DNA of 64,000 nucleotides, from the NCBI RefSeq assembly GCF_014279595.1, contig NZ_CP047943.1:1612001-1676000 (forward strand), written 5' to 3'. How positions within the stretch are numbered: position 1 is the first letter of the stretch; each line of letters begins with the position of its first letter. The position numbers and the translations under genes were made by a program. This DNA is from Synechococcus sp. RS9909 (GTDB lineage: Bacteria > Cyanobacteriota > Cyanobacteriia > PCC-6307 > Cyanobiaceae). Positions 33,331 through 53,888 of this stretch are shown in pieces. The notes under the pieces were generated by a model. The model had not been told where the DNA came from, did no database searches, and saw only the letters and a program-made list of their open reading frames with translations.

Positions 33331-33347
33331 GCCATGCAAGCTGGTTC

Positions 33348-33360: not shown

Positions 33361-33385
33361 ATTTCGTGCAGTTGGTCATCTTGGA

Positions 33386-34279: not shown

Positions 34280-34325
34280 GTGGTGTCGGCCAGTATTTTT
34301 TTCTGCTCTTTTGTAATCTTTTGCG

Positions 34326-37989: not shown

Positions 37990-38213
37990 CAGTGTTCAGC
38001 TCGGCTCTGGCGCAGGGCCTCGAGGATCTCGCCGGACTCGAGCTGCGCTGAGGGCAGCGCCTGAAGCAGCTCGGCATTGTCGGCACGGCGGGCTGTTTCG
38101 CTGAGCTCCTGCAAGGCGAAAGTGCTCAATGGCAGCCCAGCGCGACTGGCCAAGCGTTCCAGCCGTTCGGCCACGTCATCGGGCACGTGGCGGATGTAAA
38201 GCGTGCGGGTCAT
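37989..38213 (-). CDS. FitA-like ribbon-helix-helix antitoxin
   Basis: From ATG at 38213 (MTRTLYIRHVPDDVAERLER) this 74-residue protein has an N-terminal RHH DNA-binding fold and a C-terminal toxin-binding tail. It is coupled to the PIN toxin. An upstream ATG at 38261 adds 16 residues and overlaps the neighbouring gene, so it is less likely. Confidence 0.88.
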   Translation of the reverse strand: MTRTLYIRHVPDDVAERLERLASRAGLPLSTFALQELSETARRADNAELLQALPSAQLESGEILEALRQSRAEH

Positions 38214-38244
38214 CGCTGTCTTCTGCTTGCTCGTTGCTAGCAGC

Positions 38245-39129: not shown

Positions 39130-39833
39130 TGCTCAACTGCCTCGGCTTCTGCCAGCCCTCGGACGTCTATCTGGCCGGTTACTACGGCGGAGATGAGGGC
39201 TGAGCGGCGTTCCTGAAGTAGCTCTATCAGGCGTTGCTGCTCGGCGATCAGGGCGTCAATCTTGCCGGTTTCGCGGTCGAGGAATCTGGTTACCTGGCTT
39301 TGTTCCTCAATTGAAGGAAGTGCGGAGGTGAAGTCTCTAACGAAAGAATCAGGGACACGCTTTTGCCCACCTGCACCATACATCTCTGACTCGCCAAGTC
39401 GGCGAAAAGTCTGTGATCTAAAAAGGTAGTCAAGGAACTCACTCGTGATTTTCTCCTTGACAGGCCTGGTGACAATCAGCTCCGTCGTACCGAAGCCAAT
39501 GCCACCTTTCAAATCGCGAAGAATTGCACCTTTCACGTTTTCAAATCAAGGAGTGATCTTTGCGACGCAAACGTCCCCGTCTCGAAAATATGTATATCCA
39601 GAAAGGCATTCCCCGACTTCCTTCTCCTGCTCCAGCCTTATGCTCCCATGTTCGCCAATCGCTTCCATCGGCAGGAAGCTCACCATTTTCTGATCGCCCA
39701 GTTCTTTGGCTTCTTGCTTGGAAGGGTTGAGTTGGGTTGCAAATCTGAGGCGTAACGCCTCCCAATGCTCCGGCACCTCCCCCAGCCACTCCACACCGCT
39801 GGGCTAGTAGGCCGGGTAACGGGGAAAGCTCAT
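39126..39833 (-). pseudogene. hsdS: Type I restriction specificity subunit hsdS with two nonsense codons
   Basis: One frame from ATG 39833 reads SFPRYPAY, TAG, SGVEWLGEVPEHWEALRL, then VAKITP, TGA (39546-39548), VKGAILRDLKGGIGFGTTEL and the HsdS repeat region IDALIAEQQRLIELLQERRS. A second target-recognition half is missing, so it is a single-TRD or shortened form. The stops at about 39807 and 39546 in an otherwise intact frame mark recent decay, unless they are sequencing errors. Confidence 0.8.
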
Positions 39834-40126
39834 GCTCGTTCACTCCAATAGCCTGGCTGCCGATGCAGGTGCATGACGGCCAAAATCAGAATCGTTGATT
39901 GGGTATCGTCAAATGAGTAGATCACCCCATAGGGGAACCTGTGAATCAAGCAGCGGCGCACCCCCTGATTCAGCAGGGGCCATAGGAGCGGATTTGCTTT
40001 AATCCGTTCAACTGCGTAGAAAACCTCAATCGCAAATTGATGGCCAAGGCTTGACTCGTTATCTTCATAGTAGTTGATAGAAAAATTCAGCTCTTCCTGA
40101 GCATCAGGGTGGAAGACAATCTGCAT
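39830..40126 (-). CDS. RelE/ParE-type toxin
   Basis: This 98-residue toxin follows the family pattern FHPDAQEELNFSINYYEDNE, GHQFAIEVFYAVERIKANPL and RRCLIHRFPYGVIYSFDD, with a terminal HRQPGYW. It starts at 40126, sharing a base with the antitoxin's stop, and ends 4 bp into the hsdS pseudogene's start. It probably inhibits translation or gyrase. It is complete. Confidence 0.92.
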   Translation of the reverse strand: MQIVFHPDAQEELNFSINYYEDNESSLGHQFAIEVFYAVERIKANPLLWPLLNQGVRRCLIHRFPYGVIYSFDDTQSTILILAVMHLHRQPGYWSERA

Positions 40127-40347
40127 CAGCTCAATCGTCGCCAGATCCCATCAAAAACATCATCGCTTGTCACGGGCTTGACACGGCCTGCCTCAATGTC
40201 ATCCAGTCTTTTGGTGGCCAGATCTGCCCACTTCAGATCAATTTCAGACACAGTTGAATTGAGGGAGCGCAGGATGCAATCGGCAACACGCGCACGCTCC
40301 TCTACGGGTAACGATTGAATCTCAAGGATCAGGTCGTCAGTCTTCAT
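40126..40347 (-). CDS. Addiction-module antitoxin component
   Basis: This 73-residue acidic protein of the short antitoxin family carries LILEIQSLPVEERARVADCI and the C-terminal toxin-binding stretch RVKPVTSDDVFDGIWRRL. It is coupled to the RelE/ParE toxin. Confidence 0.9.
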   Translation of the reverse strand: MKTDDLILEIQSLPVEERARVADCILRSLNSTVSEIDLKWADLATKRLDDIEAGRVKPVTSDDVFDGIWRRLS

Positions 40348-40466
40348 AATGGTTGGCTAGCCCAGAAACCACCTTAGCTCGTGTTCCCGTGGATACTTGG
40401 ATGCATTGTTGACTAAACTGTCCGATTCCAACAGCGGGAAAAGCGAGTACCTCGCTGGCTGCGCAC

Positions 40467-40772
40467 TCAAAACCCGACGGACAGGATCGAAGGCGAGCTG
40501 GAGTGAGGGTGTTGGCGCCTGACCTGCCGTTCATCTTCGGATCGAACTTGTAAGAACTGCTTACAAGTTCGATCTTCCGCCAGCTCCCCTTCCTTGTAGA
40601 GCGCCTTGATGTGCTGGGTCATATTCTGCGGCGTAGCCTGGAACAGCTCCGCCGTCTGTGCCTGCGTGAGCCAAAGGCTCTCATCCTCAAAACGGAACTG
40701 AATGCGTGTTTTGCCGTCCTCCGTCTGATCAAGGATCCGCTCAGAAGGTGTGGCATCGACGGGACTGCTCAA
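40467..40772 (-). pseudogene. RhuM-family fragment
   Basis: The N-terminal region of a RhuM virulence-family protein is clear (GKTRIQFRFEDESLWLTQAQ, TAELFQATPQNMTQHIKALY), but after EDERQVRR the sequence turns to unrelated residues and stops at 101 of the usual 300 or more. Full-length relatives often sit inside type I restriction operons. It is truncated by a rearrangement near 40540. Confidence 0.75.
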
Positions 40773-40793
40773 GGTTGTTTCAGCACGTCTGGA

Positions 40794-40886
40794 TCAGCGA
40801 GGGCAGCATCCAATGAAAGCCCAGATCTCCGCCAGATCACCGTTGGCATAGGGCGTGAGAACGATTGCCCGTGCCGCAGTTGGCAT
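40794..40886 (-). pseudogene. 5' fragment of a RelE-type toxin gene
   Basis: ATG at 40886 gives MPTAARAIVLTPYANGDLAE followed by IWAF and a stop at 30 residues. This is the typical RelE/ParE opening, cut short. It lies just after the small gene at 40907, which may be its antitoxin. Confidence 0.5.
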
Positions 40887-40906
40887 CGGCGTCGATGGCC
40901 ACCCTT

Positions 40907-41104
40907 TCAGCCCTCATCCTTTGTCTCCATAGCACTCTCGAGCTCTGCACCCTGAAGGATTCTCAGCTCGCCGTCGATGCGCACGGCAATACCTGTATCG
41001 GTCTGCCGCGCCAGCTGACGGGCCCGCTGGCCGGCACGAAGCAGCGCAGCGGAGACGCGATCAAGATCTGGATCGTTGAGGTGGCTGGTAAAACCCGGGC
41101 TCAT
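40907..41104 (-). CDS. Small antitoxin-like protein
   Basis: This is a 65-residue protein with RVSAALLRAGQRARQLARQT followed by GIAVRIDGELRILQG. Similar small proteins occur upstream of RelE-type toxins. Here the candidate toxin downstream is truncated, so it may be an orphan. The family is tentatively assigned. Confidence 0.6.
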   Translation of the reverse strand: MSPGFTSHLNDPDLDRVSAALLRAGQRARQLARQTDTGIAVRIDGELRILQGAELESAMETKDEG

Positions 41105-41199
41105 TGGTTTCTGCCTTCTGCCAGCAGGACAGGCATGTCACCTCCATTATTGATCAACTGCCAGCTATCGACGGCGGTATCGGCTGGAACCAGTCGCCC

Positions 41200-41826
41200 T
41201 CAGTGCCTGATGTCGGTGGCCTCGAGCCGCTCCAGCAGCACCTCGAGTGTGCGGGTCTGACGCTCCAGCTGCAGCAGGAAGCCCCCACTGATCAGCGCCA
41301 GGATCACCAGCCAGACCGCTGAGGTGAGCGCCACCCACTGCAAGATCGGTTGCTGGGGCAGGCCAGCCGGAAGCGGACTGCGGGAGGAGGATGAATGGTC
41401 GTTGCTGAGCACCAGCTCCAGCACCCGCTCTGCGCTCACTGGCACCAGGGCCGAGCAGGCCTCGGCGTCATTGATCTGCTCCGCCAATAACTCCCGGCAA
41501 CGCTGCAGGCCGCCACCAGCCCAGAACAGACCCCAGGCGCGCTTGTCTTGCTGCAACGCCACCCAGCGGTGCGGCCGGGCGTCGTTGCGGATCAGCTGGG
41601 CTGCTTTGGCCAGGCTCCAGCTCCTGCCTTCTGCGACGGAGGGTGCGGAATGGAGCAGCAGGCGCCCATGGGGATCACGGCTGTAGCCGGTGGCGACTTC
41701 CAGGGAGAACACATCGACAATCTGCACCCGGCCATGCAGACGTGGGTGGGCTGGCTGCGGTGACCAGAACACCAGGGCATCCCGGATCCGGTGGATGCAG
41801 TCCTCGGTCTGGTGGTTGGTGGGCAT
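41200..41826 (-). CDS. Hypothetical protein with C-terminal membrane anchor
   Basis: From ATG at 41826 (MPTNHQTEDCIHRIRDALVF) this 208-residue protein has a soluble domain, a Ser-rich linker (SNDHSSSSRSP), a single transmembrane helix (WVALTSAVWLVILALISGGF) and a short coiled-coil tail. The frame is open to 41949 but the extra residues look unconserved. No family is recognised. It is divergent from the Cys-repeat secreted protein. Confidence 0.6.
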   Translation of the reverse strand: MPTNHQTEDCIHRIRDALVFWSPQPAHPRLHGRVQIVDVFSLEVATGYSRDPHGRLLLHSAPSVAEGRSWSLAKAAQLIRNDARPHRWVALQQDKRAWGLFWAGGGLQRCRELLAEQINDAEACSALVPVSAERVLELVLSNDHSSSSRSPLPAGLPQQPILQWVALTSAVWLVILALISGGFLLQLERQTRTLEVLLERLEATDIRH

Positions 41827-42005
41827 AACCAGAAGGAAAGCAGCACTGTTCGCTGCTGCTGGAGATGACCACAAGTCTCGCTGCGACCTGGGCAGGTCTT
41901 TCCCGTTATCAGCAATCGATGCAGCTTTTGCATGAATCCCCGCTGTCATGCCGATCTCAACCCAAGTGCCTCAGGGTGGGGTGGGATTGATGTGGTGCGC
42001 CTCCT

Positions 42006-42344
42006 ATGGCCATGCAGCTGGTTCTCGTCCTCGGTGCGCTTGCAGTGCTGCCTGTTGTCAGTGCCTCCAACGCCCTGGCCCAGCAACCGGTGCGCCCCCT
42101 CCCCAGGGTGGGTGGCTGTCCGATGGGGTACTACGCCTCCGGCAGTTACTGCGTGCCAAGCAAGAGCGGCAACACGCGCGGTGCGATTGAGAAGGTGGGC
42201 AACGGCTGTCCAATCGGCTTCTATGCCTCTGGGAACTACTGCCTGAGCAGCCCGAGCAACACACGCCAGGCGATCGAGAAGACCGGCAATTCTTGCCCAA
42301 TGGGCTGGTTCAGCTCCGGGCGCTATTGCGTCAAGAACCGCTGA
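42006..42344 (+). CDS. Secreted protein with three Cys-Gly-Tyr repeats
   Basis: This is a 112-residue protein with a signal peptide (LVLVLGALAVLPVVSASNALA). The mature part has three repeats of C-P-x-G-[YFW]-[YF]-x-S-G-x-Y-C, each followed by a linker of SGNTRGAIEKVGNG type. Each repeat's two Cys could form a disulfide. The repeats resemble a short motif family seen in exported cyanobacterial proteins; no function is known. It probably forms a unit with the next gene. Confidence 0.75.
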   Translation: MAMQLVLVLGALAVLPVVSASNALAQQPVRPLPRVGGCPMGYYASGSYCVPSKSGNTRGAIEKVGNGCPIGFYASGNYCLSSPSNTRQAIEKTGNSCPMGWFSSGRYCVKNR

Positions 42345-42359
42345 ACCGTTGCTGACGCC

Positions 42360-42911
42360 ATGGCCTTTCGCTTCCGCCGCTCCGCCCGCTTGGGTCCCCT
42401 GCGCTTTCACTTCTCGAAGAACGGACTGAGCTCGATCTCCGTGGGCAGTCGGGGTGCCTCGTTCAACATCCCGGTGAATCGCCGGGGCGGCAACCGCAGC
42501 ACGGTGGGGCTGCCGGGCACGGGCCTGAGCTGGAGCGTCGAGCATGAGGCCGATGCTGCTCGGGGCCTGCCCAACAGCCGCCGGCTCAAGCCAGGCCAGT
42601 TGCAACTGCTCAAACAGGAGTGCCTGCAGATCCTGCACCAGGAGTTGTTTGCGCCAGACAACGACGCCCACCGGCTCTGGAGCGAGGGCATGGTGAGCAG
42701 GCTGCTGCTGGATCCACGCGTCAAGGGAAGCCAGGCAGGACTCTTGGCGCTGATCGAAACCCCAGAAGCGATGCAGGCCTACATCGAGCGTGGGAGGAGC
42801 CAGGACGACGTCAAACGGCGGGCACAGCGCTGCCTCCAGGCGGCGGAGCTGGCCGGTCGGTTGCTCAATCCCGGTGGCACTCGCCACCTGAATGAGACAA
42901 CCGAGAAATGA
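42360..42911 (+). CDS. DUF4236 domain protein
   Basis: This 183-residue protein starts with the DUF4236 pattern (GPLRFHFSKNGLSSISVGSR followed by GTGLSWSV), a small beta domain of unknown function common in phage and accessory regions. A helical C-terminal half follows. The gene is 15 bp after the Cys-repeat gene and precedes a good terminator. Confidence 0.85.
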   Translation: MAFRFRRSARLGPLRFHFSKNGLSSISVGSRGASFNIPVNRRGGNRSTVGLPGTGLSWSVEHEADAARGLPNSRRLKPGQLQLLKQECLQILHQELFAPDNDAHRLWSEGMVSRLLLDPRVKGSQAGLLALIETPEAMQAYIERGRSQDDVKRRAQRCLQAAELAGRLLNPGGTRHLNETTEK

Positions 42912-42997
42912 GTGGTTGTACGGATCGCAGCACCCCGACAGCTGCGGGACGCTCGGGACAGCGGGCTGGGAAGCCTGCATCGGCCGTTGTCATGCCA

Positions 42998-43024
42998 GGC
43001 GGGATTGAGACCCCCGCCTTTTTT
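42998..43024 (+). terminator. Rho-independent terminator after DUF4236 gene
   Basis: GGCGGG pairs with CCCGCC across a 9-nt loop and is followed by six Ts. It ends the 42006-42911 transcript. The 188-bp gap 42912-43098 otherwise shows no gene. Confidence 0.85.
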
Positions 43025-43098
43025 GTTGGTCAAAGCGTTCTCAGCACACAGCAGGACACCGTTACTGGCTCTAGAACCATTTGAGATGCCTGAGAATC

Positions 43099-43299
43099 AT
43101 GTCTGCCTTTGCTGTTGCCTCCACGCCCCGCGGTTCTTCGATCGAAAGGCTCGACTCCGGTCGCTACCGGGTGTGTGACGTCGATCATCACTGCCGTGAG
43201 GTTGAGGACGTCTGGACCGCCTTTGAGCTGGTGCATGGTCAGGAGCTGGAACTGGAAGGCGCACCGCTCTCTGACACCAATCTCGCCCAGTGCAGCTGA
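43099..43299 (+). CDS. Small hypothetical protein
   Basis: This 66-residue protein has a beta-rich look (IERLDSGRYRVCDVDHHCRE) and begins at ATG 43099. No family is recognised. It is followed 30 bp later by another small gene on the same strand. Confidence 0.5.
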   Translation: MSAFAVASTPRGSSIERLDSGRYRVCDVDHHCREVEDVWTAFELVHGQELELEGAPLSDTNLAQCS

Positions 43300-43329
43300 T
43301 CAGCTCTGCCCTTACCTCTGCCAACGCTC

Positions 43330-43569
43330 ATGTCAGCTGCGCGCCGTTACCGCCTCACCGATGCTGCGATGCAGCCCCATCCGTATCTGGACGTTGATTA
43401 CCCGTCTTTGCAGGAGGCCCTGGATGCAGCACGCCACTGGAGCCGCAACCGGGCCCTGGATTCCTATCAGGCCTGTATCGGCGTGGAGGTGAGCACCGAA
43501 CGGGGCGACTGGCGCACCCTGACGCTGCCGACCGAGATCCAGCAACTGGAGCTGATCAGCAAGGGGTGA
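43330..43569 (+). CDS. Small hypothetical protein, source of a duplicated 3' end
   Basis: This is a 79-residue protein with HPYLDVDYPSLQEALDAARH and a C-terminal block IGVEVSTERGDWRTLTLPTE. Its last 105 bp recur at 49083-49187 with 97 of 105 bases identical, beyond the surface-protein gene. Function unknown; the conserved block suggests it is a genuine gene. Confidence 0.65.
   Translation: MSAARRYRLTDAAMQPHPYLDVDYPSLQEALDAARHWSRNRALDSYQACIGVEVSTERGDWRTLTLPTEIQQLELISKG
43465..43569 (+). repeat. 105-bp direct repeat, left copy
   Basis: It matches 49083-49187 at 97 of 105 positions in the same orientation. The two copies bracket the LytTR/histidine kinase/surface-protein block. Confidence 0.9.
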
Positions 43570-43577
43570 GCGGATGA

Positions 43578-44300
43578 TCACTCCTTCGCCAGCAGCTCCT
43601 TGAGGCGCCGGGCTGCAGTGGGCCCGATCGCCAGTGGCTGCTCAAAGCCATGAAACAAGAGCAGCGTGAGCGAACGGGACACGCGCTTCACGGTGCGCAG
43701 CGCCGCCAGGCTGATGATCGTGGAACGATCGAGACGGGGAAACTGGTCCTCCGGCAACACGCCATCCCACTCGCCAAGCAGGCGGTTCAACACCAACGGA
43801 TCACGATCCACCAGCTGGAGATGTGAGCTTTTGCCCATGGCTACCACCCACAGCACCGCATCCAAGCGGATCTGATCGCGCCAGCCTGAGCGATCAAGCC
43901 AGAAGCCTTCGGTGTCACTGAAGCCGGGATCGTTAGCATCGGCGTCTGGTCTCGCTGTAAGCAATCGCTCCAAGCAGAGGGCCAGCCGCTCTGGACGAAT
44001 CGGCTTGAGCAGGTAATCGCGCACACCGGCATCAAAGGCCTGGATGGCGAAATCGCGGTAGGCCGTGGTGATCACCACCTGGCAGGTTTCGGGAAGCATG
44101 GATAGAAGCGCTGATCCGTGGAGCCTTCCGAGGCGAAGATCCAGAAACACAAGATCTGGTGGCGCCGCCTGCACCGCAGCAATAGCCTGCTCCAGGCAAT
44201 GTGCCTGGGCCTGCACTCTCACCTGGGGATGCTGCTGCAATAAGGCCATGAGATGCCTCATGGCAGCGGGCTCATCCTCCACCAACAAGGCCTCAAGCAT
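43578..44300 (-). CDS. LytTR-family response regulator
   Basis: This 240-residue regulator has a receiver domain (ALLVEDEPAAMRHL; phospho-Asp in DLVFLDLRLG; Lys in DYLLKPIRPER) and a C-terminal LytTR DNA-binding domain from about residue 135 (HLQLVDRDPLVLNRLLGEWD, FPRLDRSTIISLAAL). It overlaps its kinase gene by 8 bp. It may control the adjacent surface protein, an inference from position. Confidence 0.92.
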   Translation of the reverse strand: MLEALLVEDEPAAMRHLMALLQQHPQVRVQAQAHCLEQAIAAVQAAPPDLVFLDLRLGRLHGSALLSMLPETCQVVITTAYRDFAIQAFDAGVRDYLLKPIRPERLALCLERLLTARPDADANDPGFSDTEGFWLDRSGWRDQIRLDAVLWVVAMGKSSHLQLVDRDPLVLNRLLGEWDGVLPEDQFPRLDRSTIISLAALRTVKRVSRSLTLLLFHGFEQPLAIGPTAARRLKELLAKE

Positions 44301-45390
44301 GGCTGAGCTGTCCCTGCCTGACGGGTAACTCCACCGTCACATAGGTGAGATCATCGTTGTTGCTGACGCGCAATGTGGCAGCCGACCCATAGAACAAATC
44401 CAGTTGCTGTCGGATCGCCTCCAAGCCGTAACCACCCCCATGGGATCCCTGCCAGCAACCTGTATTTGCCACAGACAAGATCAGGCGCTGGCCCTCACAG
44501 CGACAGCGCACCTGAATCCGTAGCAAGCCATCGAAACCAGGCGAGCCATGCTTGAACGCATTTTCCACCAGGGGTTGCAGCAGAAATCGAGGCACCTGGA
44601 GCTGCAACACGTCTTTATCAACCATGAATTCTGAGCGAAACCGTTCAGCAAAGCGAAGCTCCTGAACACCGATGTAGCCCTCAAGAGCATCCAGTTGCAA
44701 CTGCAAAGGCTCCAGTAACTCAGGCTTTGCGATCGTGTAGCGAAGATAATCTGCCAGGGCGTTTGACCCTTCCTGCACCGCATCGGGATCGTGGCGACAC
44801 GAGGCGATGGCGGTGAGACCATTCAACAAAAAATGGGGCTGAAACGCTGAGGTGAGAAAGCGCAACTGGGCTGAAACCAAAGCTTTTTCCTGCTGGCCTC
44901 GCCTGACTTCGCTGTGCTGCAGGTCACGTGCATTCAGAAACAGAAGGAAAAATCCAGCCCAAATGAGAAGGCGCAGAATCATTCCGCCGTACACAATCCA
45001 GGTTTTCGCGGCGAATTGCAAATCCGTAGAGGCATATTGATCAGCGCTGATCGGCAGCAGACGCATCAAGCCATGCGCAACGCCAATCAGGAGGCTGACG
45101 AACAGAACCATGCTGACGAGCAAGATCACGGTTCGTCGCCTGCTCCGCAGGACGCTCCAGCCTGGATTGCACAGGAACCGTCGTTGCATCCAAGCGCAGA
45201 ACAGGAACCCAGGAATCGCCCAAAACAACATCAATACAACGCCGGATTCGGGCTGGATCGTCAGCTGAGCCCAACCCCAGGTGGTGGCAAAGGCATCAAG
45301 ACCGATGACGAGCCAGAAGAGGGCGTTGAATAACAACAGACGATGGGTTCGAATCCAGCCGTTCCATTGGCGCCACCTCATCGTCAACAT
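44293..45390 (-). CDS. LytS/YpdA-type sensor histidine kinase
   Basis: This is a 365-residue membrane kinase. About four transmembrane helices occupy the first 170 residues (LLLFNALFWLVIGLDAF, TVILLVSMVLFVSLLIGVAH, GMILRLLIWAGFFLLFL). The His_kinase motif is FLTSAFQPHFLLNGLTAIAS and the ATP-binding region includes LLQPLVENAFKHG and NTGCWQGSHGGGYGLEAIR. It is the partner of the LytTR regulator. No periplasmic sensor domain is evident. Confidence 0.92.
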   Translation of the reverse strand: MLTMRWRQWNGWIRTHRLLLFNALFWLVIGLDAFATTWGWAQLTIQPESGVVLMLFWAIPGFLFCAWMQRRFLCNPGWSVLRSRRRTVILLVSMVLFVSLLIGVAHGLMRLLPISADQYASTDLQFAAKTWIVYGGMILRLLIWAGFFLLFLNARDLQHSEVRRGQQEKALVSAQLRFLTSAFQPHFLLNGLTAIASCRHDPDAVQEGSNALADYLRYTIAKPELLEPLQLQLDALEGYIGVQELRFAERFRSEFMVDKDVLQLQVPRFLLQPLVENAFKHGSPGFDGLLRIQVRCRCEGQRLILSVANTGCWQGSHGGGYGLEAIRQQLDLFYGSAATLRVSNNDDLTYVTVELPVRQGQLSHA

Positions 45391-45581
45391 GATTCAGCGT
45401 GCAACAACGTGAGCATGCCATGGATCCAGGTGCCATGGCGCCAGCAGTCGTCGCCCTCGCCCCATGCTGATGACACGTTCATTCCCTGAAACGACCGATT
45501 CATTCCAGGTAAGCCCATCAGTGCTTGCCGGTGCGGGCATGCATTCACTAGGAAATGTGCGTTTATTGCTTACCGACATCG

Positions 45582-48500
45582 ATGACCAACACAGCAGCCC
45601 TGTCAACGTTGTGCGTCGCCCAGAAGGCTGGAACGCCAACTGGTGTGCTGCTGGTGGCCGATGGCAGCTGCGCCAAGATCCGCGAGCTCCTGGCGGAAGC
45701 GCTGGTGCCTGTGCTCTGGCTGGACGGCACTCAGGATCCGCTGCAGATCGTGACCGCCGCGTTGGCGGAACGGCGGCGGCAGGGCCAGCCGGTGCAGACG
45801 CTGCACTGGGTAAGCCACGGCAGTCCAGGCGTGCTGCAGGTGGGCGCAACGTGCGTTGATCGAAATGCCCTGCTGGTGGCAAGCAAGCAACTGATCGAAT
45901 GGCAGGTGGATCAACTTGCGTTCTGGGCTTGCGATTACGGAGCCGACAAGTCTGTCGTGGGCCTTTGGGAGGAAGTTGTAGGTGCGTCTGTTTACTCATC
46001 AGGGAGCACTTTGGGCCTCGACACTGACGGCCAAAAACACTGGACTCTCGATTCGAAATGGACCAACAAGACAATCAATTGGCCACGGCATTTCGGCGAC
46101 ACGAACAGATGGAAGTACCAACTAGGGATTGTGTCTTACGCGACATTTGAAGAAGGACCTTCTGAAGACAGTGAGCCATTAACAAACAGTGAACCTATCA
46201 AAGGTGTTGGCTATGAAAATCCAACGTATGGGACCGCCCGTGCCTTTTTTGGCGAAATTGAGAACCTAGACAATAATGGATATATCGACTATTCCTTCTT
46301 AGATGAAAATCTGCAAGTTGATTTTGCTTTTATCTCACTCCCAAAGACACTGCCTACTGAAGCGCAACTTGATAACCTAAAGACATTCGTTGAGTCTGGC
46401 GGGACACTATTGATTAACGGGGAACAGCATTCAGGACCTTTGAGTATTAATGCCAACGAGAACGCTAATAAGATTCTTAAAAGCCTAGGGACTTCCATTT
46501 CGATACTGACAAATCCAAGCTCTGTTAAAGATGACGACTTTAATGCAACGAAAAGCACAGATGAATCACTGATTGAAATTGGCAACTACGAAATCACTTC
46601 CGGAATAGCCAGTGTGAAATCAAGTATCTTCGGCGTTCTTGAAATCAATGATCAATCGGCTGAAGCTATTCTTGTTACCAGCAATTCAGAAGCCAATATT
46701 GTGATGGCTCGAGAGCCAATTGGTAGCGGCAATGTGATCGCATTTGCTGATACTGGTCTTTACGACAGGTTTAAAGGTGATAATATTGCACTTTTCACGA
46801 ATATCATCGTACAGTCTAAACAGAATAAGGATTCTTTAAATGTAGCACCAGTAAATACTGTTCCCGGGGATCAGAGCTTCACAGAAGACACACGTATTAA
46901 TCGATTCGGTATCATTACTGTCAGCGATGACGATGGGAATCTATCCACGGTCCAGATCAGCGTCAAAAACGGTATTATTGGAATTGGTGTTACTGCTGGT
47001 GCCGAGATCATCAACGGCAGTAACAATTCCGCTAATCTTACCCTCAGCGGCTCGCAAGAGCAGATCAATACTGCCCTGAAGACACTCTTCTACACACCAT
47101 CAGCTGATTATTTCGGTAGCGATACCCTCACCGTTGTCAGCACCGATTCTGGTGACGCGCCGCTGAGCGACACCGATACGGTCTCCATCACGGTGAATCC
47201 AGTGGATGATGCCGCTGTCGTCTCTGAAGGCACCACCGGTTCTGGCGATGAGGATGCTGAGGCCATCACAGGCACACTCAAGGCCACGGATGTCGACGGA
47301 CTCACCGATGGCACTGTTTTCTCCATTGCCGATGGCAACAGCCCGGCCAATGGCACCGCAACGATTGATGAGGCCTCCGGTGCCTGGTCGTATGTGCCGA
47401 ATGCCAATTTCAACGGCACCGATCAATTCACCGTCACCATCACCGACGATCTGGATGGCACCACAGCGCAAACGGTCACGATCACGGTGAATCCAGTGGA
47501 TGATGCCGCTGTCGTCTCTGAAGGCACCTCAGACTCCGATGATTCTACCGCCGTTACTGGCGAATCCTCAGTCTCCGGATCCGCCCCCAGTACAGAAGCC
47601 GACGACTCCACTCAAGTCTCTGTCGCATCAAACGGCGACACTCAAACTCCAGCTGCTCAAATTGTAACTACATCAGAAGTTGCCAATGACAGTAGTTTGA
47701 GCAACTTGCGTGACCTTGAAATCGCCCTCAGCAATAAAGCTATCGACTTCGAGGTTGAGCTTGATGATGACACTTCAACCGCAACCGCCAATATCCCTCT
47801 CGCTGTCCTTGAGGATGACCTCACACTCACATCAGACGATGGAGAGCGTGATTCCTCCATCGCACCGATTTACTACGCCATTAATGACCAGGGTGCTCTC
47901 ACACCGCTTTCCTACGACCCCCTCGTCAATGCCGGTGCGCGCTTCTACGACACCGATGGTGATGGCATCGCTGATTTCCTCTCACTGACTCTGGTTGATG
48001 GCGGATTCGGCGACAAGGATGGTGTCAAAAATGGAGTGATCGATGATCCCTCTGCACTGGGCACCGTCAGCCTCGATCCCGTGCTCACCGCGCTCGACAA
48101 CGGCTTTCTTCAGGTGGCTGATGCCACCAATGCTGCGCCCGCTGCCCTCGCCCTGCAGGCGTCCCTCACCAGTCGCGCCAACGCCGTGACGGAAATCGGT
48201 TACGTCATCCTCAACGCGGGCGAGGAGGCCTCCACCGTCAGCGACATCAGCGCCTTCCAGGAGCGCGCTCACCTCCTGTTCTCCGCCCTGGAAAACAACG
48301 ACGTCACCCTCGCCGAGGCAATGACGTTCAACAGCGAGTTCCTGCTGCGCAACGGGCAGAGCATCCGCTTTTTCGCGGTGACCAACGGCACTCTCGCGGA
48401 TCTCACCAGCCTCGATGATTCACGCTTCTCCTTCCTTGATGGCAGCGTCGATGCCACCACTGGTGCGGCGTCCTTCTCCAGCGCCAGTGGCATTGGCTTT

Positions 48501-49049
48501 GATCTGACCCTGCTCAATAGCGATCAGAACCTCGGCGCTCTGATCGCCCAGGAGCAACACGCGGCACCCCTGCTCGATTTCACCGCCTTCACCAACGACG
48601 AAACCATCACCGGCACGATTGTTCAGGCCCGAGAAGCCGAATACGACGCCGTCACCGGCTTCTATCGCGTGCTCGACACCAGCGGCAGTGTGCGTGCCGC
48701 CGATGGCTCCCTGCTCACGCCCGGTGATGCCGGCTATGCCGCCGCCGCTCTGCTGGAGGCCAATCGCATCAGCGCTCTTGGCGATCTCTCCATCGCTGAT
48801 GGTGAATCCTCGTCCACCGAGTTCAGCCTTCAGGACGCCTCCTACATCGCACCGTTTGCCCAGGTGGAAGGCAACACCTTCTTTGCCTTCGCGGATGCCA
48901 ACACCGATGGCCTCTCCCACTTCCGCTCCCTCGGCAGCAACCTCTTTGGCCTGGAAGACCAGCTCGGTGGCGGTGATCTTGATTACGACGATCACGTCTT
49001 TGGCTTCAACATCGCTGGCCTCACCCCGGCAACTCCCGACGTGGCCTGA
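45582..49049 (+). CDS. Large surface/adhesin-like protein: DUF4347, cadherin-like repeats, DUF4114
   Basis: From ATG at 45582 (MTNTAALSTL) the protein has 1155 residues. An N-terminal DUF4347 domain (LHWVSHGSPGVLQV, QLAFWACDYGADKSVVGLWE) leads, then a roughly 230-residue domain around ESGGTLLINGEQHSGPLSI, then cadherin/VCBS-like repeats (VSDDDGNL, FNGTDQFTVTITDDLDG), an acidic linker, and a C-terminal DUF4114-like domain (GGGDLDYDDHVFGFNIAGL). No classical signal peptide is seen; type I secretion is plausible. The part from about 46130 to 47060 is distinctly AT-richer than its flanks. Confidence 0.85.
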   Translation: MTNTAALSTLCVAQKAGTPTGVLLVADGSCAKIRELLAEALVPVLWLDGTQDPLQIVTAALAERRRQGQPVQTLHWVSHGSPGVLQVGATCVDRNALLVASKQLIEWQVDQLAFWACDYGADKSVVGLWEEVVGASVYSSGSTLGLDTDGQKHWTLDSKWTNKTINWPRHFGDTNRWKYQLGIVSYATFEEGPSEDSEPLTNSEPIKGVGYENPTYGTARAFFGEIENLDNNGYIDYSFLDENLQVDFAFISLPKTLPTEAQLDNLKTFVESGGTLLINGEQHSGPLSINANENANKILKSLGTSISILTNPSSVKDDDFNATKSTDESLIEIGNYEITSGIASVKSSIFGVLEINDQSAEAILVTSNSEANIVMAREPIGSGNVIAFADTGLYDRFKGDNIALFTNIIVQSKQNKDSLNVAPVNTVPGDQSFTEDTRINRFGIITVSDDDGNLSTVQISVKNGIIGIGVTAGAEIINGSNNSANLTLSGSQEQINTALKTLFYTPSADYFGSDTLTVVSTDSGDAPLSDTDTVSITVNPVDDAAVVSEGTTGSGDEDAEAITGTLKATDVDGLTDGTVFSIADGNSPANGTATIDEASGAWSYVPNANFNGTDQFTVTITDDLDGTTAQTVTITVNPVDDAAVVSEGTSDSDDSTAVTGESSVSGSAPSTEADDSTQVSVASNGDTQTPAAQIVTTSEVANDSSLSNLRDLEIALSNKAIDFEVELDDDTSTATANIPLAVLEDDLTLTSDDGERDSSIAPIYYAINDQGALTPLSYDPLVNAGARFYDTDGDGIADFLSLTLVDGGFGDKDGVKNGVIDDPSALGTVSLDPVLTALDNGFLQVADATNAAPAALALQASLTSRANAVTEIGYVILNAGEEASTVSDISAFQERAHLLFSALENNDVTLAEAMTFNSEFLLRNGQSIRFFAVTNGTLADLTSLDDSRFSFLDGSVDATTGAASFSSASGIGFDLTLLNSDQNLGALIAQEQHAAPLLDFTAFTNDETITGTIVQAREAEYDAVTGFYRVLDTSGSVRAADGSLLTPGDAGYAAAALLEANRISALGDLSIADGESSSTEFSLQDASYIAPFAQVEGNTFFAFADANTDGLSHFRSLGSNLFGLEDQLGGGDLDYDDHVFGFNIAGLTPATPDVA
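47187..47234 (+). repeat. 48-bp exact direct repeat, first copy
   Basis: It is identical to 47481-47528 and encodes ITVNPVDDAAVVSEGT at the join between cadherin-like repeats. It indicates recent duplication or gene conversion of a repeat module. Confidence 0.9.
47481..47528 (+). repeat. 48-bp exact direct repeat, second copy
   Basis: It is identical to 47187-47234. Spacing is 294 bp, 98 codons, matching one repeat module. Confidence 0.9.
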
Positions 49050-49067
49050 GTTACCAAGCAGTCGCAC

Positions 49068-49187
49068 TTGGAGCCCTATCGCTACCAGGCCTCGATCGGC
49101 GTGGAGGTGAGCACCGAGCGGGGGGATTGGCGCACCCTGATGCTGCCCACCGAGATCCAGCAACTGGAGCTGATCAGCAAGGGGTGA
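49068..49187 (+). pseudogene. Partial copy of the 43330-43569 small gene
   Basis: Only the last 39 codons are present (YRYQASIGVEVSTERGDWRT onward), beginning 18 bp after the surface-protein stop. The first half of the gene and its start are missing; a TTG at 49068 is in frame but unlikely to be real. Confidence 0.7.
49083..49187 (+). repeat. 105-bp direct repeat, right copy
   Basis: It is the match to 43465-43569 with eight mismatches, same orientation, about 5.6 kb apart. Confidence 0.9.
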
Positions 49188-49206
49188 GGCTTCTGAAACA
49201 GCAGGA

Positions 49207-49380
49207 TCAGGCCTCCAGCAACAACCCCCGTAACCACTGCCAGTCACTGCCTTGGAGTTCCAATCTGCTGGTCAGCTCTGCCACCAGCCGTTGATAGTGG
49301 CGTTCTGATGGGGAGTTGCACTCCACCCTTTCAGCGATCTGCGTCAGGAGCACCGGATCGCGCTGCTCGCGCCTTGTCAA
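49207..49380 (-). CDS. Possible small protein
   Basis: A 57-residue frame from TTG at 49380 reads REQRDPVLLTQIAERVECNS and ends LQGSDWQWLRGLLLEA. Its amphipathic character looks protein-like, but there is no ATG or GTG and no recognised family. It may be a remnant. Confidence 0.3.
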   Translation of the reverse strand: MTRREQRDPVLLTQIAERVECNSPSERHYQRLVAELTSRLELQGSDWQWLRGLLLEA

Positions 49381-49504
49381 GGGCGCTCGGGGCCTCAGCC
49401 GATGTGCTGTTTTGAACCCTCAGATGTGGCGATCCGCATGCCCGCGGCAGGTCAGTGCCGGATGAATTCGATCAGGCTGATGGCCATGCGGAGCGATGCT
49501 GCCA

Positions 49505-49723
49505 ATGCGTGAGATCACCTTTGATGTGGAACAGGCCAGGCCCCGGAAGTTGACCGGGCGCTCCAGCAACCCACAGCTGCGGATCGATGCCAGCAGCCTG
49601 GAGGAGCTGCAGCATGAGGCCCGCGATGCCTTGATCCAGCACTACGGGCCTGCCCACGTGGGCTACCGGGTCCGTTTGCGCCGCCGCGTCAAGCTCATGC
49701 CGAGTGCCGGGGAGCATCGCTGA
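49505..49723 (+). CDS. Small HicB-like hypothetical protein
   Basis: This is a 72-residue protein from ATG 49505. EITFDVEQARPRKLTGRSSN and LRIDASSLEELQHEARDALI resemble the small HicB/DUF1902 fold of antitoxins (a beta hairpin then a helix). No toxin gene is adjacent on the same strand. Family assignment is tentative. Confidence 0.5.
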   Translation: MREITFDVEQARPRKLTGRSSNPQLRIDASSLEELQHEARDALIQHYGPAHVGYRVRLRRRVKLMPSAGEHR

Positions 49724-49811
49724 GCAAATCGCCCTCAGCAAAGGTCTTGATCACCGCCAGGTGCTCCAGGCGGGTTTCATACTTGGCTGCCTCGATCAGA
49801 GTGAGGTCCAT
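49695..49811 (-). pseudogene. Possible phage major capsid protein fragment
   Basis: ATG at 49811 gives MDLTLIEAAKYETRLEHLAV followed by IKTFAEGDLLS, then a stop after 38 residues. The opening resembles the N-terminus of some phage major capsid proteins. It overlaps the 3' end of the convergent small gene by 29 bp. It is a weak trace of prophage decay. Confidence 0.35.
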
Positions 49812-49890
49812 CGGTGCTGCACTCCCGGGGTCCGGCCCCAGTTCTCTTCACCAGCCATTGCCATGCTGGTGAAGAATCAGTCCCATGAGC

Positions 49891-50295
49891 TCAGGGCTGC
49901 TCCGGCTCCAGTCGCAGCACCTCCATCGGTGTCTGGATGAACTGAAAGGCGCGGTCGTTGGTCAGCAGCGCATCACAGCCCCAGTGCACCGCGGCGGCCA
50001 GATGGATGGCATCGGCTGTCTGCAGGCGGGTGGAGGCCCGCAGCTCCGCCGCCCGCTCCATCACCTCTGGATGCAGGGGCACCACGGTGCAATCGGAGAA
50101 GAAGCTGCGAAAGGCCAGCAGGCGGATCTGATCTGCCGAGCGCAATGGACCCACAAGGCATTCCATGCGCACCAGATCACTGATCACCCAGTCGGCATCG
50201 CCGTAGCGCTCCAGCTGCTGCAGGGCGTGACGGCGCAGGTGCTCAGCACCATCAAGGGCATAGATCAGCACGCATGAATCGAGGTAGAGCTGCAT
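49891..50295 (-). CDS. PIN-domain toxin (VapC family)
   Basis: This 134-residue RNase toxin has PIN residues in LYLDSCVLIYALDG, ISDLVRMECLVGPLR, LQTADAIHLAAAVHWG and LLTNDRAFQF. It is separated by 3 bp from its antitoxin. It is complete. Confidence 0.92.
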   Translation of the reverse strand: MQLYLDSCVLIYALDGAEHLRRHALQQLERYGDADWVISDLVRMECLVGPLRSADQIRLLAFRSFFSDCTVVPLHPEVMERAAELRASTRLQTADAIHLAAAVHWGCDALLTNDRAFQFIQTPMEVLRLEPEQP

Positions 50296-50298
50296 GCC

Positions 50299-50541
50299 TC
50301 AACGCCAGCCGGCCCGCTCCTGCTCCAGTGCGGTATCGATCTGCTCCTGGCTGAAGCCCTGAGCTGCGGGGATGACTGCCTGTAGGTCCAGCAGCTTGGC
50401 CAGTAGACGACGACCTGTCGGTGCGACCTCCTCAGCAGGTGTGATCGCCACGGTCACACGGCCGGTGGGGGAACCAGCAGGAAGCTGCAAGGTCCGATCC
50501 TCCTTGATCTCTGCTGTGAAGGAAAAGCTGCCCATCGCCAA
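50299..50541 (-). CDS. VapB-like antitoxin
   Basis: This 80-residue protein has an N-terminal AbrB-like beta region (FTAEIKEDRTLQLPAGSPTG) and a C-terminal helix (FSQEQIDTALEQERAGW) that likely wraps the toxin. It directly precedes the PIN toxin. The 181 bp between its start and the znuB stop hold no gene I can support. Confidence 0.82.
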   Translation of the reverse strand: MAMGSFSFTAEIKEDRTLQLPAGSPTGRVTVAITPAEEVAPTGRRLLAKLLDLQAVIPAAQGFSQEQIDTALEQERAGWR

Positions 50542-50722
50542 CGCATGGATGCATCCACGTTAGGAACGGAAGCTGCAGATGACCGGTCAGCTGGGCGCAG
50601 CGGGCCTGTGCATGACGTCAGTGGCCATCGCAGTCGGCGAGGGATGGAAGCCCTCACCGCAGTGGCGGATCGGGTCAGTGTGGTTCCGGGTCGGCTGGGC
50701 CTCCACCACGAATATGGCGCCC

Positions 50723-51568
50723 TCATGGCCCGGCAACTGCTGGAGACCGACGCGTCGTTTGACTGATCGTCAATGCCACCACAAAGCCCAGGAACTGCAC
50801 CATCACGACTGAAGGGCCAGAGGGAAGGTTAGTGAGGCCAGAGGTCAGCAACCCCACCAGGGCACAACCACCTCCCAGCAAGGCCGAACTGACCACATAG
50901 ACAGGAAAACGACGGCTGAGCAGGCGGCCTGCGCACGCAGGAATCACCACAAAGGCACTGATCAGCAAGACACCCACCGCTTTGATCGAGACCGCCACCA
51001 CCACCGCTAACAGCACGATGAAAGCCAGGCGGTGCCTGCCGCTGCGCACGCCCATTGCCCCAGCCAGATCTTCGTTGAGCGTGAGCAACACCTGAGCGCG
51101 AAGGCTCAGGGTGAGATACAGCAAAGCAACCAGAAGCAATCCAGCAATCACGCCGAGATCCAGCCAGCTGATGCCCAGAATGTCGCCGAAGAGCAACTGC
51201 TGGATCCCACCGCGATAGGTCTCCACCAGGCTCAGCGCGAGCACCGCCGCCGCCAGGGAGCTGGAATAGACGATGTTGAGCAGCGCATCGGTGGGTAGAG
51301 CACTGCGTTGCACCAGTTGATGCACCAGCAAAGCGAAGACCACGGCAAACGGAATCAACACCAAGGTGGGATTGATCCCCAGCAAGATGCCCACGGTGAT
51401 CCCCAGCAAGGCCGAATGGCCAAGCGCATCGCTGAAGAACGACAGCTGGCGCAAGACCGCAAAACTGCCCAACACACCTCCGAGGCTGCCCGTGAGCAGC
51501 CCCCCCATCAGGGCCCGTTGCATGAAGGGTTCGGCCAGGATGGAGGTAAGGGCGACAGCGTCAGCCAT
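50723..51568 (-). CDS. znuB: Zinc ABC transporter permease (second locus)
   Basis: This 281-residue ABC-3 permease has about eight helices; RQLSFFSDALGHSALLGITV and the QLLFGDILGISWLDLGVIAG loop are typical, and the C-terminus VVMVQFLGFVVALTIS is intact. It starts at ATG 51568. In the ancestral operon this start overlapped the znuC stop, but about 470 bp carrying a toxin-antitoxin segment now separates them. Expression may depend on a new promoter. Confidence 0.93.
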   Translation of the reverse strand: MADAVALTSILAEPFMQRALMGGLLTGSLGGVLGSFAVLRQLSFFSDALGHSALLGITVGILLGINPTLVLIPFAVVFALLVHQLVQRSALPTDALLNIVYSSSLAAAVLALSLVETYRGGIQQLLFGDILGISWLDLGVIAGLLLVALLYLTLSLRAQVLLTLNEDLAGAMGVRSGRHRLAFIVLLAVVVAVSIKAVGVLLISAFVVIPACAGRLLSRRFPVYVVSSALLGGGCALVGLLTSGLTNLPSGPSVVMVQFLGFVVALTISQTTRRSPAVAGP

Positions 51569-51576
51569 GGTGCTGA
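51533..51576. repeat. 44-bp direct repeat at znuB start (left copy)
   Basis: It matches 52050-52093 with three mismatches and covers the first dozen znuB codons plus 8 bp upstream. The pair flanks the inserted vapB-'vapC segment. Confidence 0.92.
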
Positions 51577-51700
51577 ATCAATCACATTGCGCTGCATCCC
51601 CACAAAATAGTTCCAAGGCGCACGGCTGATCCGAGTAGCCCCTGGCGACAGGCTCGATTCGACGAGATAGACTCTGTGTATATCCCTTCAAGGGTGAGCC

Positions 51701-51937
51701 GTGACCAGTGTCACCAAGTTGTTCCTGAGCAACCGCAGCCAGGCGGTGCGCATCCCCGCTCACCTGCGCCTGCCGGACTCCGTCAAAGCCGTCGAGGTGC
51801 GTGCCTGCGGCCTGGAGCGAATCATCTCGCCCGTTGGCCAGCGCTGGGACAGCTTTTTCCATCACACCCCGGTGCCACCGGAAGACTTCATGGCCGAACG
51901 CTCAAGCCAGGAGCAGGCCGAGCGCGAAGCGTTCTAA
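51701..51937 (+). CDS. VapB/VagC-type antitoxin
   Basis: This 78-residue antitoxin starts at GTG 51701. The AbrB/SpoVT DNA-binding fold is seen in TKLFLSNRSQAVRIPAHLRL, and VGQRWDSFFHHTPVPPEDFM is the toxin-binding tail. Its toxin gene is truncated, so it is probably an orphan. It lies inside the second znu operon on the opposite strand. Confidence 0.88.
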   Translation: MTSVTKLFLSNRSQAVRIPAHLRLPDSVKAVEVRACGLERIISPVGQRWDSFFHHTPVPPEDFMAERSSQEQAEREAF

Positions 51938-51945
51938 AGGCAGTC

Positions 51946-52032
51946 ATGTTGCGTTATCTGCTGGATACCAATATCTGTATCTACGTGATCAAGCGCAGGC
52001 CTGAATCACTCTTGGATCAAAACTGGGTCTGA
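51946..52032 (+). pseudogene. 5' fragment of vapC toxin gene
   Basis: ATG at 51946 begins LRYLLDTNICIYVIKRRPES, the typical VapC PIN opening with its first catalytic Asp, but it stops after 28 residues, just before the right direct repeat. About 100 residues are missing. Confidence 0.85.
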
Positions 52033-52040
52033 ACGACCGA

Positions 52041-52085
52041 TCAGGATGAGGCCAGGATGGAAGCCAGGGCGACAGCGTCAGCCAT
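52041..52085 (-). pseudogene. Duplicated 5' stub of znuB
   Basis: ATG at 52085 overlaps the znuC stop and reads MADAVALASILASS then TGA. Intact znuB begins MADAVALTSILAEP. The stub preserves the original znuC-znuB junction and shows that the insertion duplicated the beginning of znuB. Confidence 0.88.
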
Positions 52086-52093
52086 GGTGCTGA
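52050..52093. repeat. 44-bp direct repeat at znuC/znuB junction (right copy)
   Basis: It is the match to 51533-51576, 41 of 44 bases identical, next to the end of znuC. Confidence 0.92.
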
Positions 52094-52848
52094 TGCCGGT
52101 AGGTGATCATGTTGGGGCCGTAGAGCTCATTAAGCCGCTCCGGGCTGAGGGCATGATCGGGGCTGCCACTGCAGCGCAACCGCCGATTCAGGCAGAGCAC
52201 CTGATCGCAGCTGCGACGCACCATGTCGAGATCGTGGGAGACCTGCAGCACCGTCCAGCCCTCCTGACGGCGCAGGTCAAACAGCAGTTGTTGGAACTGC
52301 TCATTGGAGGGCGCATCCAGGCCCGCCTGAGCCTCATCCAACACCAACAACTGGCGGGGGCGCACCACACAGAACGCCAGCAACACCCGCTTGAGTTGAC
52401 CGCCTGAGAGCTCACTCAACAAGCGCTGGCCCAGACCCTCGCAACCGGTGCGCTGCAGGGCCTGCTGCACCGCCACATGGCGGTTGCGATGATCCTTCCA
52501 AGGAAGGCCCAGCCCTGGGGGGTCGAAGCCGAAGCCGACGAACTCCGCCACGGTGAGCGGGAAACGCCCTTGCAGAGCCAGAGTCTGGGGCACATAAGCG
52601 ATCTGGGCGCGGACGGCTCGAGGCAGCTGCCCATCGATGCCCAGCGGTTGCCCAAGGATCTCCACCACGCCGGATCGCCGCGGCAGCAGTCCCAATAAGG
52701 CGGCCACGAGGGTGCTTTTACCGGCACCATTGGGCCCCACCAGGGCGGTATCGCTTTCCGGGGCAAGAGCGAAGGTCACGCCCTCCACCGCCAAACGCCC
52801 ACTGCGCTCGACGCTGAGATCGTGCACCTGCAGGACCGGTTGGGTCAT
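52078..52848 (-). CDS. znuC: Zinc ABC transporter ATP-binding protein (second locus)
   Basis: This 256-residue ATPase has Walker A ALVGPNGAGKSTLVAALLG, signature LLSELSGGQLKRVLLAF, Walker B QLLVLDEAQAGLD and switch His in VSHDLDMVRR. It starts 6 bp after znuA's stop. Its own stop still overlaps the znuB stub, as in an uninterrupted operon. Confidence 0.94.
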   Translation of the reverse strand: MTQPVLQVHDLSVERSGRLAVEGVTFALAPESDTALVGPNGAGKSTLVAALLGLLPRRSGVVEILGQPLGIDGQLPRAVRAQIAYVPQTLALQGRFPLTVAEFVGFGFDPPGLGLPWKDHRNRHVAVQQALQRTGCEGLGQRLLSELSGGQLKRVLLAFCVVRPRQLLVLDEAQAGLDAPSNEQFQQLLFDLRRQEGWTVLQVSHDLDMVRRSCDQVLCLNRRLRCSGSPDHALSPERLNELYGPNMITYRHQHHG

Positions 52849-52854
52849 CGGGCC

Positions 52855-53826
52855 TTAACCACCGAACGCCTTGATCAGATCGGCCACGTTGCGCCGCATC
52901 ACCACAAAATAGGTGTCCGGCTCACGGGCGGACACCTCGGAACCGGTGCCCAGGGGATCAAACACACTGATGGCAACACCCAGATCGTTCGCCAGGGCTC
53001 GATAGGAGGGCTGGTGCTCCTGGGGCTCGGAGAGCAACACCCTGATCTGCTGACGCTGCACGACCGCTGACAGCCGCTGCAGATCAGCGGGGCTCGGGTT
53101 CAGCTCCGGCACATCCACCAGGAAATCGGCCTTGAGCTTGTAGCGCTGGGCGAAGTAGGGGGCGAAATCGTGGAACGTAATGAAAGTCTTGCCTTGGTAA
53201 GGCTTCAGTTGGGTGGCGAATGCGTCGTTCAGCGCCCGCAGCTCTGCGGTGTAGGCCGCTGCATTGCGCCGGTAGCCCTCAGCGCAGCTCGGGTCGGCCT
53301 TGATCAGGCCATCTCGGATCGTTTCTACCTGCTCCACAGCCCGCAGCGGATCGAGCCAGATGTGGGGATTCACCTCCCCATGGCTATGGCCGTGGTCGTG
53401 GCCGTGCTCCTTGTCGTGGTCGTGCTCTTCAGGGGAGTCGATGGTGGCAATGCCGCGGCTGGAATCAATCACCACCAGCTCGCTGTTGCCAGCCGAGGCC
53501 ACCAGCTTGTCGAGAAAGGCTTCCATCCCCAGCCCGTTTTTGACGAGCACCCGGGCCTGGCGCAGCGCCGCCAGATCTCCTGGCTTGGCCTGGAAGTCGT
53601 GGGGGCCCGTGGTGGGGGGGATCAAGGACTTGACCGTGGCGCAATCGCCGGCGACAGCGCGGGTGAACAGGGTGATCGGCAGGAAGGTGGTGACCACCGG
53701 GAGCTTCGAGGGGGTTCCGGCCGATGGCTCCGAGCGAGGGGTGACGCCGCAGGCCGTCATCACACCGGCGAGGAGCACTGCAGCAGAGCAGCGCCAGACA
53801 CGGGGGATCAGCGACACAGCAGCCAT
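52855..53826 (-). CDS. znuA: Zinc-binding lipoprotein with His-rich loop (second locus)
   Basis: This 323-residue periplasmic zinc capture protein starts at ATG 53826. A lipoprotein signal is likely (AAVLLAGVMTACGV). Ligand regions are TGPHDFQAKPGDL, NPHIWLDP and ITFHDFAPYFAQRY, with the mobile loop EEHDHDKEHGHDHGHSHGEV between. This classic form contrasts with the loop-less ZnuA at 33386. It leads the operon and carries a Zur-like box right at its start. Confidence 0.94.
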   Translation of the reverse strand: MAAVSLIPRVWRCSAAVLLAGVMTACGVTPRSEPSAGTPSKLPVVTTFLPITLFTRAVAGDCATVKSLIPPTTGPHDFQAKPGDLAALRQARVLVKNGLGMEAFLDKLVASAGNSELVVIDSSRGIATIDSPEEHDHDKEHGHDHGHSHGEVNPHIWLDPLRAVEQVETIRDGLIKADPSCAEGYRRNAAAYTAELRALNDAFATQLKPYQGKTFITFHDFAPYFAQRYKLKADFLVDVPELNPSPADLQRLSAVVQRQQIRVLLSEPQEHQPSYRALANDLGVAISVFDPLGTGSEVSAREPDTYFVVMRRNVADLIKAFGG

Positions 53827-53832
53827 GGCAGC

Positions 53833-53845
53833 GATAATCGTTCTC
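53833..53845 (-). promoter_or_regulatory. Zur-like box between znuA and porin
   Basis: GATAATCGTTCTC (in the znuA direction GAGAACGATTATC) is a near-palindrome matching the box at 33348 in 12 of 13 bases, placed 7 bp before the znuA ATG and 44 bp before the divergent porin. It may control both. Confidence 0.65.
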
Positions 53846-53888
53846 AGCCTAATCTCCTGTCGAGCGATTTCTGTGTGAGGGCCTCTGA

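Follow-up and report, generated by a model that had tools for sequence, protein, structure and literature searches.

The stretch of DNA analyzed here (hereafter the window) comprises 64,000 nucleotides of Synechococcus sp. RS9909 (contig NZ_CP047943.1, positions 1,612,001 to 1,676,000) and encodes on its minus strand a picocyanobacterial operon for a ZnuABC-type importer, in the order znuA-znuC-znuB, in which znuC is split from znuB by 517 bp of extra DNA. This extra DNA is a real and well-preserved scar of an insertion in a zinc operon, consisting of a vapBC toxin-antitoxin (TA) module that is now broken; it is of an ordinary kind and useful as a worked case of module entry. The best explanation of the locus as a whole, to which we assign a probability of about 0.72, is that a vapBC module was inserted with a restart of znuB by way of a znuA fragment, that its toxin is dead and that transcription likely reads through it. 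A literature search of titles and abstract openings recovered no prior description of this locus.

The split operon and its uninterrupted counterparts

The importer set is complete, with the Pfam ZnuA, ABC_tran and ABC-3 domains each above cut-off. The first gene of the operon, znuA (52855-53826, minus strand), encodes a 323-residue substrate-binding protein of a metal ATP-binding cassette (ABC) transporter (Pfam ZnuA, E-value 7.4e-73), znuC (52078-52848, minus strand) a 256-residue transporter ATPase, 93% identical in the relative G018, and znuB (50723-51568, minus strand) an intact ABC-3 permease of 281 residues. Zinc specificity is a prediction: none of the NCBIfam metal-specific models reached its cut-off for ZnuA, the best being AztC (zinc binding protein). 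Repeat comparison and open reading frames (ORFs) bear out the initial annotation, which described 44-bp direct repeats with three mismatches enclosing a plus-strand vapB and a 28-residue vapC ORF. The copies lie at 51533-51576 (left) and 52050-52093 (right), form part of an ungapped 51-nt match of 88% identity, offset by 517, and no further match to the right copy at up to 10 mismatches occurs on either strand of the window. The right copy represents the original znuC/znuB overlap and, as had likewise been read, holds a znuB stub overlapping the znuC stop (52041-52085, minus strand; 14 codons including the ATG, followed by a stop), whose ATG sits within the end of znuC, whereas the left copy is the start of the intact znuB. 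The complete minus-strand order is thus znuA, znuC, the znuB stub, the vapC remnant, vapB, 23 nt of other sequence, a znuA fragment, the very end of znuC and the whole of znuB. A 95-codon minus-strand ORF (51578-51865) with its stop 9 nt before the znuB ATG overlaps vapB on the opposite strand and was not accepted as a gene.

The search for an uninterrupted operon in related genomes, which had been proposed as a check, found it widely. Among 31 genomes of the genus, RS9909 included, searched with ZnuB, a close ZnuB copy is present in 17 (RS9909 counted), and the other 14, some of them incomplete, have distant ABC-3 proteins only, at no more than 31% identity. In every one of the 16 relatives from the genus with a close copy, znuB overlaps or adjoins znuC, and no vapB was detected in their fetched regions at an E-value of 1e-3. 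A scan of named genomes, from which the best 80 of 190 loci were kept, partly overlaps this set in the organisms covered; its nearest members are Vulcanococcus sp. Clear-D1 (L084, 95%) and the metagenome-assembled genome K_DeepCast_35m_m2_155 (L085, 93%). Of these 80 loci, 72 yielded a znuC on the same strand at >45% identity, which ends at most 100 nt from znuB in 69 of them; gaps of 181, 489 and 1120 nt occur in the distant loci L131, L138 and L155, respectively (ZnuB about 60% identical). No znuC was detected in the remaining eight, two of which (L124, L135) are near a contig end while the other six have room upstream, and none of the 80 loci has a vapB match at an E-value of 1e-5. The junction of the znuA fragment with znuB, with up to two mismatches permitted, is found in one of the 31 genus genomes, namely that of RS9909. 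Within the collections searched the insert is private to this lineage. In three Cyanobium-like loci (L100, L125, L157) a znuA match stops 6-41 nt short of znuB and no znuC was found upstream, which represents a different operon order. The znuA of G018 (L032, 8806-8814) matches in two pieces separated by 7 nt versus 6 expected, at a run of G, which might be a frameshift, a sequencing artifact or a phase-variable site.

A vapBC module with an internally deleted toxin gene

The insert carries vapB (51701-51937, plus strand), an open antitoxin gene of 78 residues whose product scores 98.3 bits against NCBIfam NF040493 (cut-off 60) and falls below the cut-off of the general Pfam model MazE_antitoxin (16.5 versus 24.7 bits). 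Its distribution is patchy: vapB occurs in 50 of 399 genomes of the order, RS9909 included, which is the sole member of its genus among the 50. Twenty-nine further vapB loci were fetched from this order-wide search to read their neighborhoods, and in 24 of them a full-length open vapC follows on the same strand, 10-17 nt past the vapB match; by the same test none follows in L077, L079, L080 and L082, and only a distant one in L081. The nearest relative is that of G175 (L055), with a VapB of 86% identity and a VapC of 132 residues that passes the tRNA(fMet)-specific endonuclease model NF010285 (168.4 versus a cut-off of 143).

Alignment with G175 proceeds in two pieces, 51649-52018 (85%) and 52016-52055 (90%), and in G175 the second begins 310 nt after the first has ended. 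Hence vapC has suffered an internal in-frame loss of 312 bp, or 104 codons, with both gene ends kept, and the remnant (51946-52032, plus strand) consists of about the first 24 and the last 4 codons of the 132-residue protein. The initial annotation had taken this gene as truncated, a reading that the alignment does not bear out; a cut of vapC by the insertion boundary was rejected, for homology resumes at the 3' end of the gene and continues 23 nt past its stop, to 52055, ending in GGCCAG. No microhomology is evident at the deletion beyond about 2 nt. The PIN match in the 28-residue ORF covers residues 4-21 only, at 14 bits versus a cut-off of 23.6, well short of a complete PIN toxin, and of the acidic residues of the domain just the first is left. 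The toxin should be inactive, as the deletion took most of this domain, and VapC is in all probability dead. Elsewhere in the genome, three VapC-like stretches are 33-37% similar to the G175 toxin.

Upstream of vapB lies a palindromic block (51665-51685, plus strand), its putative operator and promoter, with one mismatch to a pattern shared by relatives, GGATAGACT-N4-GTATATCC. Among the 29 relatives, from which the pattern was itself derived, 15 match it exactly, 19 with up to two and 26 with up to four mismatches, and shuffling predicts 0 matches in 64 kb. The vapB gene and this operator survive as those of an orphan antitoxin that is probably decaying. Three-point hand arithmetic on pairwise distances, with G359 and G377 as outgroups, gives nonsynonymous (dN) and synonymous (dS) branch lengths of about 0.05 and 0.05 for the vapB of the window and about 0.04 and 0.43 for that of G175, a hint of relaxed selection drawn from 78 codons and outgroup dS values of 0.7-1.3, with the ninefold dS gap between the branches unexplained. 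The locus in any case displays a toxin gene that is broken with its antitoxin gene still open.

As to the source of the module, a second vapBC copy in the same genome was rejected, with vapB and the insert DNA each having one match there (40 of 44 candidates scored for the insert DNA). A phage source was likewise rejected, there being no vapB match at an E-value of 1e-5 in 50,697 phage records. Among 72,556 plasmid records, 1383 carry relatives of VapB, but identity exceeds 60% in just one of them, and no plasmid donor was found.

The module appears to be a derivative of a type II TA system of the VapBC family. It resembles the tRNA(fMet)-type VapBC (NF010285, NF040493) in that its VapB passes the same family cut-off and in having the same gene order and the same operator, but differs from it in that its VapC retains 28 of 132 residues, leaving no complete pair. 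In Escherichia coli the ccd system is itself among the TA systems that are decaying. Chromosomal TA modules of E. coli have been described between conserved genes, some of them decaying by deletion or nonsense mutation, and the same account reports for E. coli and Salmonella that TA systems degenerate and that their insertion sites seem non-random, calling the route of TA integration unelucidated (PMC7167474). In contrast to those cases, the module of RS9909 lies within an overlapping gene pair, the start of the downstream gene is duplicated and a znuA fragment lies at the join. Nine strains of marine Synechococcus, among them the estuarine CB0101, are also reported to carry TA pairs (PMC5498466).

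Junctions and routes of entry

Both ends of the module retain clues to its entry. The hexamer GGCCAG (52050-52055) with which homology to G175 ends lies behind the intact vapC in that genome and, on the other strand, coincides with znuB codons 11-12, suggesting that the stub and vapC were probably joined through a 6-bp microhomology. At the opposite end, the alignment with G175 gives out near 51649 and those with other relatives at 51666 or later. Beyond it come 23 nt outside both alignments (51626-51648) and then, unmentioned in the initial annotation, a 43-nt fragment of the znuA 3' end (51583-51625, minus strand), a copy of 52885-52927 in direct orientation that is 79% identical without gaps. 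Its local score of 45 compares with a maximum of 32 in 1000 dinucleotide shuffles, and among 96 loci it fits the znuA of RS9909 and of G018 best (45), the rest reaching at most 32, led by L085 and L084. It was therefore most likely copied from the znuA of this very lineage, and a junction derived from a foreign znuA-znuB operon was rejected on this ground. The repeat copies differ from each other at 3 of 44 sites and from G018, L084 and L085 at 4-9, which supports a duplication of the znuB start within this lineage. The stub copy has fewer differences than the intact start from each of the three (6 versus 9, 4 versus 5 and 5 versus 6, respectively), and since it is slightly closer to relatives and placed beside znuC, it would mark the original position.

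These features can be accounted for if a horizontally acquired vapBC of the tRNA(fMet)-endonuclease type entered znuB in inverse orientation near its start, with one end following about codon 12, probably at GGCCAG. Its other end would have been linked, by way of the short piece copied from the 3' end of znuA, to a duplicate of the znuC terminus and the beginning of znuB. By virtue of that duplicate znuB would have remained complete. The in-frame loss in vapC would have left vapB as an orphan antitoxin. The likeliest route is template switching of a replication type, in one event of multiple steps. A partial duplication of the operon is an alternative that we regard as possible, if with odds below even: a circle or tandem array of znuA'-znuC-znuB' carrying vapBC would have been integrated by homologous recombination, with the second znuC deleted later. 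Both routes produce the observed order, and znuA-znuC-znuB'-module-'znuA-znuB is just the leftover expected of a duplication followed by deletion; yet this path requires at least two events, and neither is an intermediate seen among the 16 genus relatives nor a vapB in the 80 named loci.

The initial annotation had held that the repeats themselves show how the module entered. This stands insofar as a TA module did enter an operon that is uninterrupted in relatives, but the repeats alone do not suffice, and since the znuA fragment adjoins the left one they are not a simple target-site duplication; the insert is not bounded directly by a duplicated target, for the fragment and the 23 nt intervene before the left repeat. 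A transposition-like insertion with a 44-bp target-site duplication would explain direct repeats flanking the module, though 44 bp is long for such a duplication. It is rendered improbable by that intervening fragment, by the lack of an inverted repeat pairing the insert ends in the repeat listing and of any insert ORF of transposase length, and by the differing upstream flanks among vapBC relatives. More improbable still is that the znuA-like piece is a relic of a foreign znuA-znuB operon, znuB itself having arrived with the module. The three Cyanobium-like loci with a znuA match close to znuB provide a precedent for such an order, against which stand the best fit of the piece to the znuA of RS9909 and G018 and the 90% identity of the intact znuB to that of G018 over 829 nt.

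The locus preserves both junctions of one TA entry, with a probable 6-bp microhomology at one and a short copy from a nearby gene and a rebuilt gene start at the other. This suggests that ordinary errors of replication or repair suffice, free of a transposase, for a TA module to enter, and that it can enter even an overlapping gene pair provided that the start of the hit gene is rebuilt.

Expression of the displaced znuB and neighboring features

Both znuB and znuC show purifying selection relative to G018, with a dN/dS ratio (omega) of 0.13 each, and on account of this znuB should work. A Zur-like box (53832-53846, minus strand), with one mismatch to a Zur-box consensus, lies just upstream of znuA and overlaps a promoter-like site; the same box is present in G018 and L084, and such a box with up to two mismatches lies near the znuA start in 11 of 17 relatives read, a count that leaves out L085, whose contig begins inside znuA. 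For marine Synechococcus WH8102, ABC zinc importer genes are reported in which a Zur-like box precedes znuA (PMC9337993), but there znuA and znuBC are described as divergent around one box, whereas in RS9909 znuA-znuC-znuB are unidirectional and split by the insert.

It is certain that znuC no longer overlaps a complete znuB. Ribosomes leaving znuC would now meet the 14-codon stub, and znuB must presumably start translation independently, probably facing opposing transcription from vapB. RNA folding compared with shuffles gives a z-score of -3.2 at the znuB start of G018, -0.8 at the new start and -0.1 at the stub, and the weaker fold at the new start may ease initiation. The insert contains no Zur-like box within three mismatches on the minus strand and, by scans, neither a terminator-like nor a promoter-like site, though the promoter scan is insensitive and also missed the vapB promoter. 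The region has three terminator-like sites, all inside znuB and znuC, where chance alone would give 2.5. A match to the Rho RNA-binding domain is present in 9 of 14 control genomes but was not found in this one, and hence Rho-type polarity from an untranslated stretch is not expected. Transcripts from the promoter at the Zur-like box thus most likely run through the 517-bp insert into znuB, judging from sequence features, and such read-through is likelier than a loss of Zur control. That the insertion instead uncouples znuB from this promoter, as the initial annotation had suggested, with separate expression, e.g. from a promoter in the insert, finds no support in the sequence and seems unlikely. 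In its favor, znuB is now 517 bp farther from the promoter, has lost its overlap with znuC and faces vapB, and a scan for canonical terminators can miss transcript ends of the kind reported in Synechococcus elongatus (PMC13289151); against it speak the empty terminator, promoter and Zur-box scans of the insert, the missing Rho match and the equal constraint on znuB and znuC. We give only a very slight chance to a further variant in which orphan VapB was co-opted, together with its operator (located about 100 bp upstream of the intact gene), as a local control of znuB, e.g. through a transcription block in the insert; if true, such a takeover would add a stress input to zinc uptake.

Several points weigh against the combined reading of insertion, restart and read-through. 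The GGCCAG junction is deduced through G175, a mere relative of the donor, and the divergence of the znuA fragment (79%) blurs its exact junction to znuB. Control of this operon by Zur is itself only predicted: six of the 17 relatives read (L033, L038, L044, L045, L046, L047) lack a box within two mismatches, and one of the two predicted ZnuABC systems of WH8102 is described as having no Zur box (PMC9337993). Furthermore, most transcription units of S. elongatus are reported not to be ended by known pathways (PMC13289151), and as such non-canonical ends are common there, a missing predicted terminator is not proof of read-through.

The window also includes a second metal-ABC-importer-like cassette (31836-34279), comprising an ATPase, an ABC-3-like permease and a ZnuA-like protein, whose nearest NCBIfam models are AztA, AztB and AztC, all under cut-off. 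A Zur-like box (33347-33361) precedes its ZnuA-like gene, and a gene for a His-rich protein (34326-35456) follows the cassette. As the window holds this cassette, with a Zur-like box of its own, the splitting of the znu operon is probably of small physiological weight, and the cassette may buffer any defect of that operon. The region 31642-50747, which reaches to just behind znuB, spans about 19.1 kb here, whereas G018 has about 0.1 kb at the corresponding position; it is probably an island, or else was lost in G018. Behind znuB lies a second TA-like pair (49891-50541), formed by a PIN domain (49891-50295) and a small gene of no convincing family (50299-50541), neither of which was detected in the regions fetched for the 16 genus relatives. 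Adjacent to it, 50545-50766 on the plus strand appears by eye to be the remnant end of a hydrolase-like gene, of which L084 has a complete version running convergently to znuB (5803-6702); here it was apparently cut by the neighboring extra DNA. Within this extra DNA, an ORF of 127 residues on the minus strand (37606-37989) looks PIN-like by eye and has no NCBIfam match.

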